64,000 nt of DNA from Bacteroidota bacterium. GTDB taxonomy: Bacteria > Bacteroidota > Bacteroidia > M30B66. Shown piece by piece: positions 39,922-49,555 of this stretch (position 1 is the first letter of the stretch; each line of letters begins with the position of its first letter). Under the pieces are notes generated by a model. That model was not told where the DNA came from. It worked only from the letters and a program-made list of their open reading frames with translations, and did not search any database. The position numbers and the translations under genes were made by a program. The stretch is from contig JAIXYK010000044.1 of NCBI GenBank assembly GCA_027490225.1, forward strand, positions 62,001 to 126,000, read 5' to 3'.

Positions 39922-40038
39922 AACTATTTGTAAGTTTAAACTAACATTTAAGCTAACCAAAATTTAGCTTTTGAGTTAATTAGTTGTGAAGATTGAACTT
40001 AACGCTTCTACAAACTAAAACAATTTAAATTGAGCACA

Positions 40039-43000
40039 ATGACAAATAAATACATTTTGTTTTCTGCATTTTTACTTATTTTCACTACTATCTCAAAAGC
40101 ACAGAGATACCTTATCCCTAAACATGTTCAGGTCTCTGACTATGTCCAAAATCAATTAATATTTAAAATTAAAGAAGACCAGAGAATTGCTTTTGAAAAC
40201 TCAACAGTAATTCATCCGTTAATTGCTGCTATAATTCAAGAAAGCGGAGGAGGAAACTTAGCTAAGAACTTTCCTGCTTCTAAAGCTCCACGTAAGAAAA
40301 CAAACGAATACGGTGAGGCATTGGCAGATTTAAGTCTCATTTATCAATTAAAAACAAACAATAATATTGATATGAGAAGAATTGAGGAAAGATTATTTAA
40401 ATCTGGAATCATAGAATGGGCGCAGCCGAGATACATAAACAAACCAATGTTTACTCCAAACGACCCACAAATTTCTCAGCAATACCATCATGCTTTAATT
40501 AAAACTTTTGAAGCCTGGGACATTGAACAAGGCGACACTAACGTATTTATTGGAATAACAGATGCAGGAATCCAATTCACACATGAAGATTTAGCAAATG
40601 TAAAATACAATTATGCCGACCCAATAAACGGAATAGACGACGATAACAATGGCTATATTGATGATTTTAGAGGATGGAATTCAGTTGTAAACTCTAACGA
40701 CCCAACAGCTACACTTTCTCCACACGGTATGTTTACTACAGGAATGTGCTCTGCAACAACAAACAATGCTTTAGGAATTGCCGGTAATGCATACAATTGT
40801 AAATTCATTCCGATTAGAATTGATGATGCAAATGGATTTAATTACGGATATGAAGGAATTACTTATGCGGCCGATAGAGGAGCACAAATAATTAATGCAA
40901 GTTGGGGTAATACTTTTTACACACCAATGGGTGAAGATGTAATTAGATATGCAACTATAAACCTAGGTGCTTTAGTTATTGCAGCAGCTGGTAATAGTGG
41001 TTTAAATGAATCATATTATCCGGCATCCTACCCTTTTGTATTTAATGTTGGGGCAACTGGCGCAACAGATGTAAAGTGGTCAGGTTCAACTTTTGGTCCT
41101 GACTTAGATATTGTAGCTCCCGGTGAATTGGTTCGCTCTTGCTGGCCTTTTAATGGATATCAGGAGAGTTCAGGAACTTCATTTTCATCTCCTTTAGTTG
41201 CAGGTGCAGCAGCATTAGTAAAAAGTCATTTCCCGCAGTACAATGCACTTCAAGTTGCCGAACGATTAAGAGTAACAGCTGACACAAGCATTTACCAATT
41301 GGCTGGAAATTCAGGATTTTACCATTATCTGGGTGCTGGCAGATTAAACATGCAAAGAGCGCTCAATGCACCTCAAACACCATCTGTCCACTTTGAAGAA
41401 GTATCTATTGAAGATAACGATGGAAACAATTTTGCAGAACCTGGAGATACTGTAAGTCTTCTTGGAAATTTCTTTAATTACTTGGCTCCAACAACTTCTG
41501 TAAACGCAATAATTACTTGTAATTCTCCATTTATTTCAATCACAAGTAACAACTTCAACGGAGGAAACATCAATACTTTATCTCAGGTTTCGAATACAAG
41601 CAATCCTTTTGTTTTTGAAATTTTGCCAGGCGCACCTGTAAATCTTACGCTCGTTTTTAAAATTACTTACACTGATGTTGCTTATTCGGCATTCGAATAC
41701 ATCACCTTAAAAGTAAACAAAGATTATATGGATTTAGCAATAAACAATATTGCTACCACAATAACTTCACATGGAAATATAGGCTACAACGCTGATTATG
41801 CTACAGATGGAATAGGAATCTCCTATAAAAATTCAAATACGCTGATGTATTCCATGAGCTTTATGATAGGCAGCAGTAGTTCTAAAACAGCTGACAATGC
41901 TTACGCTTCAGTTATTCCGGGTTATGATAACGATTTTGTTAGGGTAAGTAGTGTAAAAAATATCAATCCTGTAAACAGTAATTACGTTGAAATAAAATCT
42001 AAATATTATACAGATAGCGCTTCAGTGAATAGGCTGGAAATTACGGAGAAAGCTTGGGCATCTGCAGCTCCTCCGGATAGTAATTTTATTCTTTTTAATT
42101 ATACTGTTAAAAATACTGGAAATGCTGTTACTGAAAATTTATCTGCAGGATTATTCACAGATTGGGATATTGAAAATGCTGGCACGAATCAGTCTGTTTA
42201 TAATGATGCCGAAAAACTAAGCTATGCTTTTAATACCCAGAATAATGGTTTATACGCAGGTGTTAAATTAATTTCTGGCACAGTTGCAGGTCATTATTGT
42301 TTTAACAGTGATGGGATTTCTGGAAGCTCGAATTTATATGATGGATTTTCTCCAGTTGAAAAATTCAATGCTTTATCAGGTACTGTAACACGCGATGTTT
42401 CTCAAATTGGAGATATTTCAAATTTAATTTCTGCCAGTTTAAGCACAATTCAACCGGGTGATTCTGCAACTTTTACTGTTGCATTACTTGCAGGGGAGAA
42501 TTTAGACGCTTTAATTGCTGCTGGAGATAGAGCTGCCGCAGTTTCTAACTTTTCTAATGCTCAGATCTATGTTGAAAGTGTAAACGAATCTTGCAACGGT
42601 AATGATGGACTTATTTCTATACAATCTGGCAATCCACAAATTACTCATGTTGAGTTATTGAATAGTTCAAACATTGTTATTGAAAGTGGAACCGATATTA
42701 GCAATTTGAGTTTCGAAAATTTAATTCAAGGTGATTATCTTTTGAATTTTATCTTTGAAGACAGCACCAATTACGGAATTCCAGTAACAATAGAAAGTTC
42801 ACCAGCTGTTTCGGTATCTATTAGCGCTTCTTCAGAGTTTGTTTTGATAACTAATGCTTCAGTTGATTTCACTTCAACTTCTACAAATGCTGAAAGTTAT
42901 ATGTGGGATTTTGGTGATGGAAATAGTTCTACAGAACAAAACCCAACGCATACTTTTACAGAAGAAGGCACTTTTGATGTTTCTTGTATTGCATTCAATG

Positions 43001-43293
43001 CCAGTTGTTCAGATACTTCATATTTAACAATATTAGTAGATGGCACAGTTGGATTTAATATCAATCAAGAACAAACAATTAATTTGTTTCCCAATCCAAC
43101 ATCTGATTTCTTAAGCGTTGAGGGTTTAATTAAAGGAGAAATGAAAATTTACAATTCAATGGGGCAATTAGTATTTCAAAAAGAAATCAATGAAGGGACT
43201 CCTCTTTCACTGAATCAATTAAGTAAAGGTTTTTACATTGTTGAGATCAATTACGATCTAAAGAAAATAAACAAACGTTTACTGATAAAGTAA
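40039..43293 (+). CDS. Secreted S8 subtilase with PKD domain and T9SS type-A CTD
   Basis: The 1084-residue protein has a signal peptide (1-22, ending SKAQ), an inhibitor-like prodomain (about 25-140), and an S8 peptidase domain (about 150-450). The triad is D175 (ITDAGIQF), H229 (SPHGMFT) and S381 (SSGTSFSSP), with the oxyanion residue N319 in AAGNSG. Beta-rich segments, a PKD domain (WDFGDGNSSTEQNPTHTF, about 945-1000) and a sorting domain (LFPNPTSDFLSVEG ... FYIVEINYD) follow. It probably degrades proteins outside the cell. The frame opens at a TTG (40030); ATG 40039 starts the signal peptide. Confidence 0.92.
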   Translation: MTNKYILFSAFLLIFTTISKAQRYLIPKHVQVSDYVQNQLIFKIKEDQRIAFENSTVIHPLIAAIIQESGGGNLAKNFPASKAPRKKTNEYGEALADLSLIYQLKTNNNIDMRRIEERLFKSGIIEWAQPRYINKPMFTPNDPQISQQYHHALIKTFEAWDIEQGDTNVFIGITDAGIQFTHEDLANVKYNYADPINGIDDDNNGYIDDFRGWNSVVNSNDPTATLSPHGMFTTGMCSATTNNALGIAGNAYNCKFIPIRIDDANGFNYGYEGITYAADRGAQIINASWGNTFYTPMGEDVIRYATINLGALVIAAAGNSGLNESYYPASYPFVFNVGATGATDVKWSGSTFGPDLDIVAPGELVRSCWPFNGYQESSGTSFSSPLVAGAAALVKSHFPQYNALQVAERLRVTADTSIYQLAGNSGFYHYLGAGRLNMQRALNAPQTPSVHFEEVSIEDNDGNNFAEPGDTVSLLGNFFNYLAPTTSVNAIITCNSPFISITSNNFNGGNINTLSQVSNTSNPFVFEILPGAPVNLTLVFKITYTDVAYSAFEYITLKVNKDYMDLAINNIATTITSHGNIGYNADYATDGIGISYKNSNTLMYSMSFMIGSSSSKTADNAYASVIPGYDNDFVRVSSVKNINPVNSNYVEIKSKYYTDSASVNRLEITEKAWASAAPPDSNFILFNYTVKNTGNAVTENLSAGLFTDWDIENAGTNQSVYNDAEKLSYAFNTQNNGLYAGVKLISGTVAGHYCFNSDGISGSSNLYDGFSPVEKFNALSGTVTRDVSQIGDISNLISASLSTIQPGDSATFTVALLAGENLDALIAAGDRAAAVSNFSNAQIYVESVNESCNGNDGLISIQSGNPQITHVELLNSSNIVIESGTDISNLSFENLIQGDYLLNFIFEDSTNYGIPVTIESSPAVSVSISASSEFVLITNASVDFTSTSTNAESYMWDFGDGNSSTEQNPTHTFTEEGTFDVSCIAFNASCSDTSYLTILVDGTVGFNINQEQTINLFPNPTSDFLSVEGLIKGEMKIYNSMGQLVFQKEINEGTPLSLNQLSKGFYIVEINYDLKKINKRLLIK

Positions 43294-43403: not shown

Positions 43404-45611
43404 CTAACCCATCGGTATATCAATTCTAAAAATACTTCCTCTGCCAAGGGATGAATCTAAATCAATTGTTCCTCTGAGTTTTTGTACAGTATCTTTTACA
43501 TTAGAAAGTCCAAGACCATTGCTTTCCGAATGATTGCCTATGGTAAAATATGGGTCAAAAATTCTTTGTTGATTCTCAATTGCAATTCCTATCCCGTTAT
43601 CTTCAACAATTATTTCTAATAACAATGGATGTTTAACAGCTCTAATTTTTATAAACTTAACTTTCTTAGCATCATCATGATATCGAATTGCATTAGAAAT
43701 CAAATTGCTTAAAATAATCCGAATTTTTATAGGATCTATATCAACTTGAATTGGACTCAAAATCTCGTTACTAACTTCAATTGAAGAGGTTATATCAGCA
43801 AATTTCAATTCTTCTATTACTTCGTCTACAAGTTTATTTAAATTGTAAGGTTCTACTTTAACAACAGACCTGTTTTTAAGTGAAGAAATAATGTCGTTTG
43901 TAAAAGTTTCCAACTTTTTAAGACTCTTTTCCATCATATTCAGGTAAGTATGAAACTCTTCTGGATTCTTTTCATCTTTTGCAAGCGTAATTAATCCATG
44001 AACAGAATTCATTGGAGCTCTTAAATCATGACTTAATATTTTTATCAATCTATCAAGTTCTTTATTGGTATTTTCAATTTCTAAATACTGACCTTGGAAC
44101 TTTTCATCGGCCAATTTTCTGGCTGAAACATCAATCATACTGATACAAACACCTAAAACATTTCCTGTATCATCGGAAACAGGAGAAAGACTCACACCAA
44201 ACCAAAAAACAGAAGAACTAGAAAATCTTAAACACATTTCCCATTGCACAGTTTCATTGATAAGTGCTTGTTGAAACTTTTCTAAAAATTGATCTTTAAC
44301 TTCTTCAGTCAAATAGTCTAGAAAGCTTCTATTTTCTTGCAATTCAAGCCCCATCAATTGGATACATTGTTTATTGGCAAAAACATTAAACGCCTTCACT
44401 CTATATTGCGAATCCAAAAGAACAATACTTTGAACTACATTATTAAAAATAGAGTTCAACATAGCAACAGATTCTTTCTGTTGTTCAGCAAATTTCACAC
44501 TTTGAGAAACATCCTTTACAACCCTAATAAAACCTATCGCTTCTCCATTTTCATTGCTCAAAAGTGAAGTTGTATTTTCAGACCAAATAATTCTGTCTTC
44601 TCTTGTAATCAGTCTAGATCTCCAATTAAATAAATTGCCACTAACAATTTCTTTTAATTCTCTGCCAAGTTTTGGCTTATCAATTTCTGGATAAAGAATA
44701 TCAAAATGTTTCCCAAGCATCTCGCTGCTTTTATATCCAAATGTTTGCTCTGCACCCTCATTCCAATAAGTAATTTTACCATTCGAATCTGTTACAAAAA
44801 TGGTATCTTTTACATTCTTAAGAATATTTGCTTGGAAAATGACTTCCTTTTGCGCTTTTCTTTTCTCTGTAAGGTCTTCTGCCAATATTAAAAAACAATC
44901 AACCTCATCAACTACAATTTCTTTAACTCGGCATTCAACAAAAACTATTTTTCCGTTTTTTTTGATGTGTTGAAATTCGTGTGGCTCAAAAAAATCATTT
45001 TTCGCAATTAATTCTTTCAAGTACGCATGTTCTTCTTTTGGATGTAAATCGAAAATTGTCATCCCTAAAAAGTCTTCCAAAGTATAGCCAAAATGTTGCA
45101 CACTGGAATTATTGGCTTTTATAATTTTATAAGAGTCTTTTTCTCTTATATACATTGGAATTGGATTATTTTCAAAGAGCAGCTTATATGTTTCCTGACT
45201 TTGTCTTAAAAGTTCAACACCAGCTTTGCGCTCAATGCTATATTGTATAGATTTTGAAAGTAATTTTTCTTCAAACTCACCTTTTACGAGATAATCCTGC
45301 GCTCCATTTTTAACTGCATCTTTAGCAAATGTCTTGTCATTCAAACCCGACAATATTAAAATCGGAGTTTGAGGAACAAATTCACTCAACTTCAAAAATG
45401 AGTCAATACCATAACTATCCGACAATGAAAGATCAAGTAAAATCACATCAATCTGATTTGCTTTTGTGGCTTCTATTGCAAGTTGAAGTGTATCAGCATG
45501 AATTATACTTTTTGAAAAGTCTTTTATTTCAAAAAGCATTTGCTGAATCAGCAAAAAGTCTCCTGCATTGTCTTCAACAACAAGTATGGTTAGGACGCTT
45601 GCTGTATTCAT
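43404..45611 (-). CDS. Multi-PAS sensor histidine kinase with N-terminal receiver
   Basis: Domains in order: receiver (1-125) with phosphorylation site D60 (VILLDLS); three PAS domains (about 135-255, 260-375, 385-505); HisKA with H528 in LSHDLRAP; and an HATPase (about 620-735; DNGIGIA, GLGLSNVK, GRGSIFRIDIP). No membrane helix is seen, so the protein is cytoplasmic and integrates an upstream phospho-signal with PAS ligands. It is divergent from a PAS/DHp/REC protein whose start is 481 bases away, and the two are natural partners. Target unknown. Confidence 0.88.
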   Translation of the reverse strand: MNTASVLTILVVEDNAGDFLLIQQMLFEIKDFSKSIIHADTLQLAIEATKANQIDVILLDLSLSDSYGIDSFLKLSEFVPQTPILILSGLNDKTFAKDAVKNGAQDYLVKGEFEEKLLSKSIQYSIERKAGVELLRQSQETYKLLFENNPIPMYIREKDSYKIIKANNSSVQHFGYTLEDFLGMTIFDLHPKEEHAYLKELIAKNDFFEPHEFQHIKKNGKIVFVECRVKEIVVDEVDCFLILAEDLTEKRKAQKEVIFQANILKNVKDTIFVTDSNGKITYWNEGAEQTFGYKSSEMLGKHFDILYPEIDKPKLGRELKEIVSGNLFNWRSRLITREDRIIWSENTTSLLSNENGEAIGFIRVVKDVSQSVKFAEQQKESVAMLNSIFNNVVQSIVLLDSQYRVKAFNVFANKQCIQLMGLELQENRSFLDYLTEEVKDQFLEKFQQALINETVQWEMCLRFSSSSVFWFGVSLSPVSDDTGNVLGVCISMIDVSARKLADEKFQGQYLEIENTNKELDRLIKILSHDLRAPMNSVHGLITLAKDEKNPEEFHTYLNMMEKSLKKLETFTNDIISSLKNRSVVKVEPYNLNKLVDEVIEELKFADITSSIEVSNEILSPIQVDIDPIKIRIILSNLISNAIRYHDDAKKVKFIKIRAVKHPLLLEIIVEDNGIGIAIENQQRIFDPYFTIGNHSESNGLGLSNVKDTVQKLRGTIDLDSSLGRGSIFRIDIPMG

Positions 45612-46092
45612 GTCTTAATTTTAGACAGCTTAAAGATAGAAATCTTACTCGAAATAACCATAATACTACCAACAAAAAACAAACTTTGCTTATTGTTGTG
45701 TGCACAAATTAAATCTTTGTAATTATTTGTCATCCAAATGCAATTTAACAATTCACTTACGCAATAAACTTCGATTTGTTTCATATAGTATTACTTCTGA
45801 GATTATTTGATTATTATTTAAGTAAGTATCTACTATTCATTGCAGTTTGATATTAGTGATGGATTAAGTATTCTCAAAAATAATTTATGATATTTACTAC
45901 AGTTAAGTATTGAGCGTTTGAAGTATAAAAACAAAAATTATTACAACTTAATTAAATACTCTAATTAACGCTCAACAACAAAGCTTTGAAACTAACGGCA
46001 ATTCACAAAAATTCTTTTAATTGATTTTTTATTAAAATATTATTTACATTTACAATGTTGGAAGTTGATTGTTGGAAATAAATTAGCTAAGT
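45612..46092. other. 481-base gap between divergent signalling genes
   Basis: A very A+T-rich stretch that must carry both promoters. It contains a 9-base perfect inverted repeat, TTGAGCGTT (45910-45918) and AACGCTCAA (45967-45975), which extends imperfectly inward with AGTAT/ATACT, so it may form a long stem-loop or be a paired operator. No gene is supported. Confidence 0.4.
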
Positions 46093-48261
46093 ATGGTTGG
46101 AATCTCTACAGAACTTTTTGAAAAAGTATTTGAGGAAGGTAAATTTGCAAAGTGTATTTGTAAATTGGATGGAGAGATACTGAATTTCAACAAATCATTT
46201 AAAGAGTTATTCCAAATTTCAGAATATGAAAATGTTCTTGGCAATCTTGTTAATCTCATAAATATATTTTCAAATACTCCTATTACCTTAGAAGATTTTA
46301 TTGCATCTAATTCCGAAAGAAAACAAGGCAGATTATTGATGCAAAATCCTTCAAAAGGAGAGTCAGTTATAGATTATGACTCAATTTGCTTTAATGCAAA
46401 TGGCATTTCTATATTCTTATTAACTTTAGAAGATGTAACTCAGAAAATACTTGAAAAAAAGGATCTTTTATTTTCACAACAAAGATTGCAACTTATAACA
46501 GATACCCTGGGCATGGGCGTTTGGGATTTTGATTTTGTTCATCATAGCTACTACCTAAGCGATAATGTTTATAGTATTTTTGACATTACAAAAAAAGAAT
46601 TCTTAAATGACCCAGCAATTTTCTCTAAAATTATCCATCCAGATAATCTTAAAGAATATAAAGAAAAGTGGCAAATCGGCAAAGATAACGGCGGCAGATA
46701 TGAATTGTACACAAGAATTATAACCAAAAATAACATCATAAAAAACATACATATTAACGGTTTGTTTTTGAACGAAAACAATCAAAAGCCTAATAGATTC
46801 ATTGGAAGTGTTATAGATGTTACGAAAACAAAAGAAAATGAAGCTGCTTTAATCATAGAAAGAAATACGTATAAAAATCTTTCATTTCAGTTTGAAGAAG
46901 CAAAAAGCAATTTACAATCATTATTAGACAATTTCAGCAACACCAGTATTTGGTCAATCGACAAAAACTATTGCCTCATTGCTGGCAACGATTTTTTTAG
47001 ATTAGAACACCACAAGTATTTTAACAGATGGATTTCAAAAGGAGATAACATATTTGACCCAAATTTTGCCCCTACAGAAATGGTTGAATATTGGAAACCA
47101 TTATATAACAGGGCTTTTAAGAATGAATCTTTCACCATAGAATATGAAATTTTGGGAAATGTATTTATTGTTTCCTTTAACCCAATTATAGTGAATGGCG
47201 AAGTTTTAGGTGTTTCAATTTTTGGACAAGACGTAACTGCAGAAAGAAAAGTAAATGAGGAATTAAAATTCAATGAAGAGAGGTGGAAGTTTGCATTAGA
47301 AGGAAATAATTATGGATTATGGGACTACAGTATTAAAGAAAATACTTTCTTCTTTTCCCCAATCTGTAATATGATTTTAGGTTATGATAGCGATGAGGTT
47401 ATTTTTCCTACAATTGAGCATTGGACTAAAAATATTCATCCTGATGATTTAAAAAATACAATTACTATTTACCATCAGTTGTTGAAAGGAGAAATCCAAT
47501 CGTTTGTATTAGAATTAAGAGTAAAAACAAAAGACGGGGCTTATAAGTGGATTTTAGATCGAGGGAAAGTTTTTGATTTCGATAACGATGGAAAAGCAAG
47601 CCGCATTATTGGTTTATTTATAGATATTTCTGCACGAAAAGAAGCGGAAAGTAAAGTAAATAATTACTTGGTAAGCCTCGAAAAATTTGCTCAAATTACT
47701 TCTCATAGTTTAAGACTTCCGGTTGCTAATATTATCGGAATAGCTAATCTTATTGAAGATGAAATAAGTTTTAATGAAATACAATCTTTAAATAAAAGTT
47801 TAAAAATTTCTGCATTACAATTAGATGAAGTTATTAAAGAAATGAATGAGGCAATAACTTTTGTTTATAATGGTAAAAAGAATTCAAAGCAAACTAAAGT
47901 ATCTACTGTTTGGTTTATAGATGATGATGAAATAAACAATATGTTGAGCGAAAGGATGATGAAAAAACATTTTCCAGACATTAAAGCATCTTCTTTTCTG
48001 TTTGCTAAGGATGCACTCAATTTGCTAAGCGAAAGAAAAGAAGAGCTCCCAGATGCTATTTTTCTGGATATAAATATGCCAGAAATGAACGGCTGGGATT
48101 TTTTGGAAGTCTTTGAAAAACAAGATTTTACAATTCCAATTTACATGCTCACTTCTTCAATCGATCCTAAGGACCAAGAAAAAGCTCATCAATTTTCTAC
48201 AGTAAAAGATTTTATTTCAAAACCACTAAAAGAGGATAGACTTAAAATTCTAATAAAATAA
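46093..48261 (+). CDS. PAS / DHp-like / receiver protein lacking an ATPase domain
   Basis: Three PAS-like domains are seen (about 125-245, 275-395, 400-520), preceded by another possible PAS at 1-115. A HisKA-like segment follows with H538 (QITSHSLRLPVANI), but the residue after the His is Ser instead of Asp or Glu. There is no HATPase; instead a receiver domain begins at about 605, with the acidic pair in FIDDDE and phosphorylation site D659 (IFLDINMPEMNG). The protein therefore cannot phosphorylate itself, but its His and receiver could take part in a relay, for example with the divergent REC-PAS kinase. No membrane helices. Confidence 0.82.
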   Translation: MVGISTELFEKVFEEGKFAKCICKLDGEILNFNKSFKELFQISEYENVLGNLVNLINIFSNTPITLEDFIASNSERKQGRLLMQNPSKGESVIDYDSICFNANGISIFLLTLEDVTQKILEKKDLLFSQQRLQLITDTLGMGVWDFDFVHHSYYLSDNVYSIFDITKKEFLNDPAIFSKIIHPDNLKEYKEKWQIGKDNGGRYELYTRIITKNNIIKNIHINGLFLNENNQKPNRFIGSVIDVTKTKENEAALIIERNTYKNLSFQFEEAKSNLQSLLDNFSNTSIWSIDKNYCLIAGNDFFRLEHHKYFNRWISKGDNIFDPNFAPTEMVEYWKPLYNRAFKNESFTIEYEILGNVFIVSFNPIIVNGEVLGVSIFGQDVTAERKVNEELKFNEERWKFALEGNNYGLWDYSIKENTFFFSPICNMILGYDSDEVIFPTIEHWTKNIHPDDLKNTITIYHQLLKGEIQSFVLELRVKTKDGAYKWILDRGKVFDFDNDGKASRIIGLFIDISARKEAESKVNNYLVSLEKFAQITSHSLRLPVANIIGIANLIEDEISFNEIQSLNKSLKISALQLDEVIKEMNEAITFVYNGKKNSKQTKVSTVWFIDDDEINNMLSERMMKKHFPDIKASSFLFAKDALNLLSERKEELPDAIFLDINMPEMNGWDFLEVFEKQDFTIPIYMLTSSIDPKDQEKAHQFSTVKDFISKPLKEDRLKILIK

Positions 48262-48265
48262 CTTA

Positions 48266-49555
48266 CTAGATTTTTTGAAGTCCTGCTTTCACTAAAACTC
48301 TTCTGATTGCCATTTTAGAAAAATAATTAAAGCCGACTTTAATTCCCCTGCTAGCTAATTGATCATATCTAAAAAAATTGTAAAACCTCGAATAATTGCC
48401 CTTTTTCGGCCTTTGGTACCTGCCATTAATTCCCAAAGTATCATTCCCCCAAGGGAATTTGAAATTAAACAATAAAGATTCAGATGATAATGAAGCATCG
48501 CATTCTTCAATGTTTAATTCAATATTTGAAAGCCCATTTTCTAATGAGAGTCGAAAGGCTTTGTTATAATCTGTAATCCAAATATTAGTTGGTGAAAGCA
48601 ACTTTGCCCAGATCTTGTAATTCCTATCTAAATTAACTACAAAATTCTTTGCTTGAATTTTTAATTCCTCTTCTGAAATAGATTGACCTTTTATAAGATC
48701 TTCACCTAACAATATCTTTTCGAAATCTACATTATATTTCTTTATTGATAATTCAGTATTGTGCTCTTTATTTGGCCAGTAAGATTCACCAGGATACAAT
48801 AAAACAGCCTTGGCTTTAGTTCGATGATTAATAAAATCTACAACTTTTTGAGGCCTGTTTACTTCGTCGTTCAAATAAAAATTTTCTTCGTGACAAAACC
48901 AAACAAAACTGGCTATTGGAATTACTATTTCAGGTTTAAAAATATCTACCTGAAATTTCAACCCTTCGAGTTTATCATCCGCAACTTTCCTCCTAAAATC
49001 TCTGTCTTCCTTATTACCGGCCCAATAAGCATAAGAAAATTGTGTAAGTAACAAGTCTATCTTACCTACTTGCTGTTGTATCTTGTCTGCTGCAAATTTA
49101 TCCCTGATTCCACAATCATTTGTATTAAAAATGGTGAAATCTTTCGATTTAATTAAAATCCAAGAATCTCCTTCTTGATATAACTCACACATCACTTTTA
49201 AATCTGGCGATAGCACCTCAAATGTATCTGGCTTTAATTCAATTACATGCTTAAAACCTATTTTCTTACAATAATTAATTACTCTTTTATCTTTTGTTTC
49301 CTGAAACAAAACAGTAATATTCTTGCGATGTGCTTCTGAAATTCTATTTAAATTAGGAGGAAAAAAATGGTCTGGATGCTCATGAGAAAACCAAATATGA
49401 GTCACTTTTTCAAAATCCTCAAATTTAAACTGGGTTTTGGAAATTAAATCCCAACCATTATTAAAAACACGTCCCTCTAGCCAAGGATCAATCATTAACA
49501 CAATGTTATCATGTTCAACAACAAAAGATGAATGATTAACAAATTGAATATTCAT
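48266..49555 (-). CDS. Metallo-beta-lactamase-fold hydrolase
   Basis: A 429-residue MBL-fold protein with the metal motif H58, H60, D62, H63 (SHEHPDH) and an N-terminal VLMIDPWLEG segment. Further conserved-looking His/Asp-bearing stretches are NTNDCGIRDKF (about 145). Such proteins hydrolyse esters, lactones, phosphodiesters or RNA; NAPE-PLD-like and sugar-related members of this size exist, so no reaction can be assigned. Its stop is only four bases from the convergent PAS/REC stop. Nine bases separate it from the GNAT gene upstream. Confidence 0.72.
   Translation of the reverse strand: MNIQFVNHSSFVVEHDNIVLMIDPWLEGRVFNNGWDLISKTQFKFEDFEKVTHIWFSHEHPDHFFPPNLNRISEAHRKNITVLFQETKDKRVINYCKKIGFKHVIELKPDTFEVLSPDLKVMCELYQEGDSWILIKSKDFTIFNTNDCGIRDKFAADKIQQQVGKIDLLLTQFSYAYWAGNKEDRDFRRKVADDKLEGLKFQVDIFKPEIVIPIASFVWFCHEENFYLNDEVNRPQKVVDFINHRTKAKAVLLYPGESYWPNKEHNTELSIKKYNVDFEKILLGEDLIKGQSISEEELKIQAKNFVVNLDRNYKIWAKLLSPTNIWITDYNKAFRLSLENGLSNIELNIEECDASLSSESLLFNFKFPWGNDTLGINGRYQRPKKGNYSRFYNFFRYDQLASRGIKVGFNYFSKMAIRRVLVKAGLQKI

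Follow-up and report, generated by a model that had tools for sequence, protein, structure and literature searches.

An ATPase-less PAS-DHp-receiver protein encoded beside a complete sensor kinase is a candidate phosphotransferase of a Bacteroidota family

What can a histidine kinase-like protein do when it has no domain with which to bind ATP? The question is raised by two divergent genes within a stretch of 64,000 nucleotides from a Bacteroidota bacterium (GenBank assembly GCA_027490225.1, contig JAIXYK010000044.1, positions 62,001 to 126,000; hereafter the window), whose genome comprises 3.77 Mb in 66 contigs. Gene A encodes a sensor kinase with an N-terminal receiver, and gene B encodes a protein with PAS domains, a dimerization and histidine phosphotransfer (DHp) domain, and a C-terminal receiver. 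A previous sequence-only reading had suggested a closed relay between the two, and its coordinates, strands, protein lengths (735 and 722 amino acids), and predicted phospho-acceptors (D60 and H528 in A, H538 and D659 in B) were all exactly confirmed in the sequence. We consider B to be, with a probability of roughly one half, a sensor-gated dimeric phosphotransferase with a DHp domain like that of Spo0B or ChpT and a receiver of its own, which would be fed by another kinase, plausibly A.

Consistent with the claim that B has no ATP-binding domain, Pfam found no HATPase, that is, no catalytic and ATP-binding (CA) domain, in B. None lies between the end of the DHp domain, at about residue 594, and the start of the receiver at residue 607, and the domain content of B is that of neither a sensor histidine kinase nor a hybrid histidine kinase. 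When relatives were searched with B, the same CA-less DHp-receiver layout recurred in many genomes. We collected 190 distinct DHp domains from the fetched loci and classed them by what follows in frame and directly downstream; 91 had a CA domain, 98 had none, and 1 was cut by a contig end. Among the 98 CA-less members, 58 end within 30 amino acids after the DHp domain, 15 have a receiver gene directly downstream (with gaps mostly of -40 to +4 bases), 24 carry a fused receiver, and 1 is arranged otherwise. Pfam matched the C-terminal parts of these 98 to HisKA (PF00512) in 75 cases at an E value of ≤0.001 and to Response_reg in 27, but to HATPase in none, and a HATPase frame stands next to a CA-less DHp domain in only 1 of them. 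The missing ATPase in B is a trait of this family. A scan of genome contigs returned mostly stand-alone receivers. All the named contigs carrying CA-less homologues are from Bacteroidota; the family reaches beyond the class of the window within the phylum, with 8 to 11 members in each of two genomes of one taxonomic family (G485 and G417 of f87), and identity to B falls to about 20%.

When a tree was built from 189 DHp domains, a single branch separated all the CA-less domains from the others (SH-aLRT, the Shimodaira-Hasegawa-like approximate likelihood ratio test, 96); shuffled labels required about 64 changes. A slower tree, built from 90 rows that are less alike, supported this branch at 89 and 91, with a single change sufficing in 90% of the bootstrap trees. 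The single branch indicates a coherent family rather than scattered truncations, and the CA domain was apparently lost once in this Bacteroidota family, which appears to be ancient and to have been overlooked in the phylum. Since the sampling began from CA-less seeds, CA-less domains may also exist outside the clade, and the counts given here are not frequencies. The receiver state (fused, adjacent, or absent) changes 17 times on the 189-domain tree and 11 times on the 90-row tree, and this repeated fusion and adjacency suggests that the DHp domain is functionally tied to receivers.

The DHp segment of B could in principle have been a coiled coil without kinase homology, a possibility that the sequence-only reading had itself named as a refutation of its proposal. 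Pfam HisKA is sub-threshold on B, with 16.8 bits for the whole protein and 21.6 bits for the isolated segment against a curated cut-off of 26.9. However, a profile of 80 segments related to the B DHp domain matched the DHp domains of solved HisKA kinases, with a best E value of 2.2e-9 and with ZraS and DivL among the matches. The AlphaFold2 model made from the 80 sequences, with a mean pLDDT (predicted local distance difference test) of 92, showed a kinked helix joined by a loop to a second, long one, the kink lying between segment residues 25 and 27, beside the His. In a fold search with the DHp domain alone, histidine kinases came out on top (VC2136, DivL, and HK853), albeit with the weak E values that are expected of a helical hairpin. 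The H-x-x-R-x-P signature is also present, with H538 in SHSLRLP. A bare coiled coil was rejected on the basis of the profile matches and the confidently modeled hairpin. The attached receiver has a complete active-site set (D611/D612, D659, T687, and K710; PF00072), and these residues are invariant across the aligned fused-receiver set. Among solved structures, the Cytophaga hutchinsonii response regulator 3ilh comes closest to it, with a TM (template modeling) score of 0.81. A model of the DHp domain together with the receiver, built from a 12-sequence alignment, reached a pLDDT of 81 with a regular receiver.

The aligned columns around the acceptor distinguish the CA-less from the CA-bearing domains. 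The His is present in 97/98 CA-less and 91/91 CA-bearing domains, Arg at +3 in 98/98 versus 76/91, and Pro at +5 in 95/98 versus 76/91. A single CA-less member (L181:6246-8837, minus strand) lacks the His; it reads NSTDLRSP and is still fused to a receiver. The +1 position, when it is Asp, Glu, or Asn, has been linked to autokinase activity; it holds one of these residues in 28/98 CA-less but 87/91 CA-bearing domains (Fisher p 1.8e-23, a descriptive value because the rows are related). The Ser that follows H538, which had been pointed out as a peculiarity of B, is accordingly not diagnostic, since the +1 position is unconstrained in CA-less members generally. Before the His, CA-less domains favor W/F at -4 and Q/T/N at -2, whereas the CA-bearing set has Y and V/A. 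HisKA phosphatase activity needs a Thr or Asn at +4 (PMC5231405, citing Willett and Kirby 2012), and such a residue is found in 0/98 CA-less and 7/91 CA-bearing domains, with Leu in B. A conserved acceptor, a free autokinase neighbor, and an absent phosphatase residue make up the pattern that a phosphotransferase would show, which is evidence of an indirect kind.

We found A in 9 of the 10 genomes of the taxonomic family, at 46 to 61% identity, and only one match outside the family at an E value of ≤1e-80 (36% identity). Pfam matched A to Response_reg (2.1e-15), three PAS domains, HisKA (4e-9, 36.7 bits), and HATPase_c (2.7e-21), which bears out its description as a full kinase with an N-terminal receiver. 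In 7 of the 9 A-bearing genomes, representing four genera (g1, g2, g3, and g4), B divergently adjoins A (the window genome G000 and G001, G002, G003, G006, G008, and G007, where B is an N-terminal fragment at a contig end, 82% identical to the B of G006). The outer neighbors vary while the adjacency of A and B persists, and this adjacency is conserved beyond general gene order, with A as the core gene and B as the accessory one. No B without A was seen among the family's 10 genomes. The co-occurrence that had been proposed as a check was therefore borne out as a divergent adjacency, but not as an obligatory one; an obligate pair was ruled out by G004 and G009, where A has no adjacent B. The receiver acidic pair, D60, and Lys, as well as H528 and the ATPase boxes, are conserved in 9/9 A orthologs with or without an adjacent B, and since D60 and H528 are kept in both genomes without one, the receiver of A cannot depend on B alone.

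B cannot phosphorylate itself, so any phosphate that it carries must come from another kinase, for which A is the best candidate because of the conserved adjacency. From phosphorylated A, the phosphoryl group would pass to D659 on the receiver of B and be exchanged between D659 and H538, the fused receiver serving as a built-in partner of the DHp His; H538 may then hand it to a further receiver, for example, D60 of A itself or a stand-alone receiver. The PAS domains of B would gate this exchange. We infer the passage of phosphate through H538 and D659, its direction, and the role of A as donor, and A and B may form a closed relay. 

Several observations weigh against a phosphotransferase. The His could persist for structural reasons, Glu still occupies +1 in 22/98 CA-less members, and 58/98 show neither a fused receiver nor one immediately downstream in the examined stretch. 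G004, in which A stands without an adjacent B, is 100% complete (G009 is 84% complete). The CA-bearing relatives also mostly lack Thr or Asn at +4, so that its absence alone does not exclude a phosphatase, and the trees rest on 86 columns with some long branches.

It is doubtful, on balance, that B acts as a phosphatase under sensor control or as a phosphate sink, the DHp domain dephosphorylating a receiver (its own, D60 of A, or a stand-alone one) and the receiver of B draining A. Such a role would agree with the lack of an output domain in B, and HisKA-type domains without CA were proposed as response regulator phosphatases for the archaeal "HisKA, no HATPase" proteins (PMC5847659). On the other hand, the Thr or Asn one helical turn past the His is missing in every CA-less member, and there is dispute over what the His itself contributes to phosphatase activity (PMC5231405).

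We regard it as unlikely that B supplies the acceptor half of a kinase that is split or heterodimeric, its H538 being phosphorylated in trans by the CA domain of A or some other kinase. A, encoded right beside B, is a complete kinase whose N and G boxes are intact, and trans-phosphorylation of this kind has been reported for the mycobacterial HK1/HK2 pair and for CheA3/CheA4 of Rhodobacter sphaeroides. However, the CA-less family does not keep the acidic or Asn residue that CA kinases have at +1, and the DHp domains of A and B are only weakly similar (35% over about 50 residues, E value of 0.03). A small CA-only partner plainly dedicated to B was not found in the window genome, where the short HATPase-only frames encode 140 amino acids (C42) and 81 amino acids at a contig end (C23); a full kinase would therefore have to serve.

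Quite unlikely, in our view, is that the DHp domain of B is a mere dimerization or signal transmission element between the PAS domains and the receiver, with the His as a relic and B acting by binding, e.g., as a dominant-negative partner of A. The one member that lost the His keeps its DHp domain and receiver, and dimerization or protein contacts were suggested for similar archaeal receiver-PAS-HisKA proteins (Galperin et al., PMC5847659), but in the 98 sequences few positions of the DHp domain are as well conserved as the His, Arg at +3, and Pro at +5, and a pure dimerizer would not need them. Of the two roles offered by the sequence-only reading, phosphotransfer is thus favored by the family-wide His, and a plain dominant-negative role is disfavored because it would not need that residue. 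A truncation or pseudogene was rejected, as B is an intact frame with orthologs of the same layout and CA remnants were not found downstream, and so was a recent CA deletion from an ordinary hybrid kinase, since the DHp domain of B groups within the CA-less clade.

A wider scenario, which we advance tentatively and at somewhat less than even odds, is that Bacteroidota possess their own class of dimeric phosphotransferases. This class would have arisen by a single ancient CA loss from a PAS histidine kinase and spread to many families, with up to 11 copies per genome; it would play the part of histidine-containing phosphotransfer (HPt) proteins, Spo0B, or ChpT and would have repeatedly fused with and separated from receivers, and B would be its member wired to A.

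Table 1. Features of the A/B locus (window coordinates) and of two further CA-less DHp domains in the window genome
Feature	Position	Strand	Evidence
Gene A, complete sensor kinase, 735 aa, REC (receiver)-PAS(x3)-HisKA-HATPase	43404..45611	-	Open reading frame (ORF), Pfam, orthologs 46-61% identical in 8 relatives
A HATPase_c (CA), N, G1, and G2 boxes intact (NLISNAIRYH, DNGIGI, GLGL)	43410..43736	-	Pfam 2.7e-21; boxes kept in all orthologs
A HisKA/DHp, H528 then Asp (LSHDLRAP)	43887..44057	-	Pfam HisKA 36.7 bits
A three PAS domains, approx. aa 130-505	44097..45224	-	Pfam PAS_4/PAS_9, 3 stretches
A N-terminal receiver, aa 9-119; acidic pair E13/D14, D60, S88, K110	45255..45587	-	Pfam Response_reg 2.1e-15
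A receiver phospho-acceptor D60 (ILLDLSL), predicted	45432..45434	-	Sequence, ortholog alignment
Intergenic region, 481 bp, between divergent A and B	45612..46092	.	ORF coordinates, sequence
Gene B, ATPase-less PAS-DHp-REC protein, 722 aa	46093..48261	+	ORF, Pfam, orthologs in 6 relatives
B PAS domain 1 (weak)	46153..46443	+	Pfam PAS_9 4.6e-7 whole protein, 7e-4 alone
B PAS domain 2	46552..46809	+	Pfam PAS_3 2.9e-11
B PAS-like segment missed by Pfam (weak sCache_3_3 only), linker motif GQDVTAERK at end	46885..47262	+	Sequence; inference
B PAS domain adjoining DHp	47350..47613	+	Pfam PAS_3 7e-18
B DHp domain, aa 515-594; His on a kinked first helix, followed by a second helix	47635..47874	+	Alignments, AlphaFold2 pLDDT 92, profile match to solved HisKA DHps
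B predicted phospho-acceptor H538 (TSHSLRLP, Ser next)	47704..47706	+	Sequence; 97/98 CA-less relatives keep the His
B C-terminal receiver, aa 607-721, without output domain	47911..48255	+	Pfam Response_reg 6.7e-16; nearest solved structure 3ilh
B receiver phospho-acceptor D659 (IFLDINMP), predicted	48067..48069	+	Invariant in alignment of fused set
Receiver-less CA-less DHps, window genome (L043, L044)	G000:C30:7969-8205; G000:C43:112632-112868		

The window genome holds further members of the CA-less family. A second fused PAS-DHp-receiver protein has 361 amino acids (C30; L168:11638-12720), and two PAS-DHp proteins, of 345 (C30) and 433 (C43) amino acids, stop right after the DHp domain without a receiver. 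In relatives across the taxonomic family, an ABC transporter operon (ABC_sub_bind, BPD_transp_2, and ABC_tran) directly follows the gene for the second fused protein (counterparts in L172-L176 and L179), and in the window genome it is preceded by a class II tRNA-synthetase-like gene. G004 has a relative of it with a receiver and without the DHp segment (L151:1471-2214, minus strand), an apparent natural loss of the DHp domain.

Around the A/B pair itself, a third kinase (PAS-GAF-PAS-HisKA-HATPase, with SHDLQEP) is convergent to B in G001, G002, G003, and G008 (e.g., L162:8821-11643; also L165, L166, and L167), and its homologues are located elsewhere in the window genome (C63), G006, G007, and G009. 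At that place the window has a metallo-beta-lactamase-fold protein (Lactamase_B_3; 48266-49555, minus strand), convergent to B. On the other side, convergent to A, is a gene for a subtilisin-like protease that is secreted, contains a PKD-like segment, and has a sorting-type tail at its C terminus (40030-43293, plus strand), a homologue of which also adjoins A in G002.

We found no description of the Bacteroidota CA-less DHp family in the open-licence literature beyond an archaeal census and a category of the P2CS database, and annotations probably list such proteins as ordinary sensor kinases or as PAS proteins despite their inability to use ATP. If the His of the family carries phosphate, these proteins would form an overlooked phosphorelay layer in one phylum, with A/B as a compact and conserved test case; if the family consists of phosphatases, it would represent a natural counterpart of the EnvZ DHp domain in isolation. 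In both cases, what CA-less DHp proteins do, until now a matter of speculation for archaea, becomes directly testable.

Among known systems, B shares with Spo0B of Bacillus and ChpT of Caulobacter, which bear DHp domains (PMC5231405), a DHp-type hairpin with an acceptor His and no use of ATP. B differs in that it has no CA-like domain, its chain running from the DHp domain into the receiver, and in that its sensors are fused. Spo0B and ChpT keep a degenerate CA-like domain and have neither PAS domains nor a receiver of their own. In Sphingomonas, PhyT/PhyP is likewise a histidine kinase relative that works as a phosphotransferase, between the single-domain receiver SdrG and PhyR, and PhyT is kinase-derived with a degenerate ATPase domain (PMC5898713). 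Unlike B, PhyT/PhyP has an HRxxN-type DHp domain, an ATPase domain that is degenerate but present, and a membrane anchor. Hybrid histidine kinases (PAS-HisKA-HATPase-REC) share the order of PAS, DHp, and receiver with B but include the HATPase that B lacks. The DHp domain of EnvZ, a phosphatase even without CA, is similarly an isolated HisKA DHp domain; in nature, however, EnvZ is a full kinase, and B and the whole CA-less family have no Thr or Asn at +4. B also resembles the archaeal "nonenzymatic HK-like proteins," which have N-terminal PAS/GAF sensors and a C-terminal HisKA-like domain with the conserved His, no HATPase, and in some cases, such as AF_1472, a receiver, and for which phosphotransfer or phosphatase roles were suggested (Galperin et al., PMC5847659). 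Proteins with HisKA and no HATPase correspond to the "possible incomplete histidine kinase" category of P2CS (PMC5847659), into which B also falls with its sensor domains and its HisKA with a conserved His. The archaeal proteins have been reported mainly from Archaeoglobi and Methanomicrobia, whereas the family of B belongs to Bacteroidota, forms one clade, and often has its receiver at the C terminus or directly downstream.

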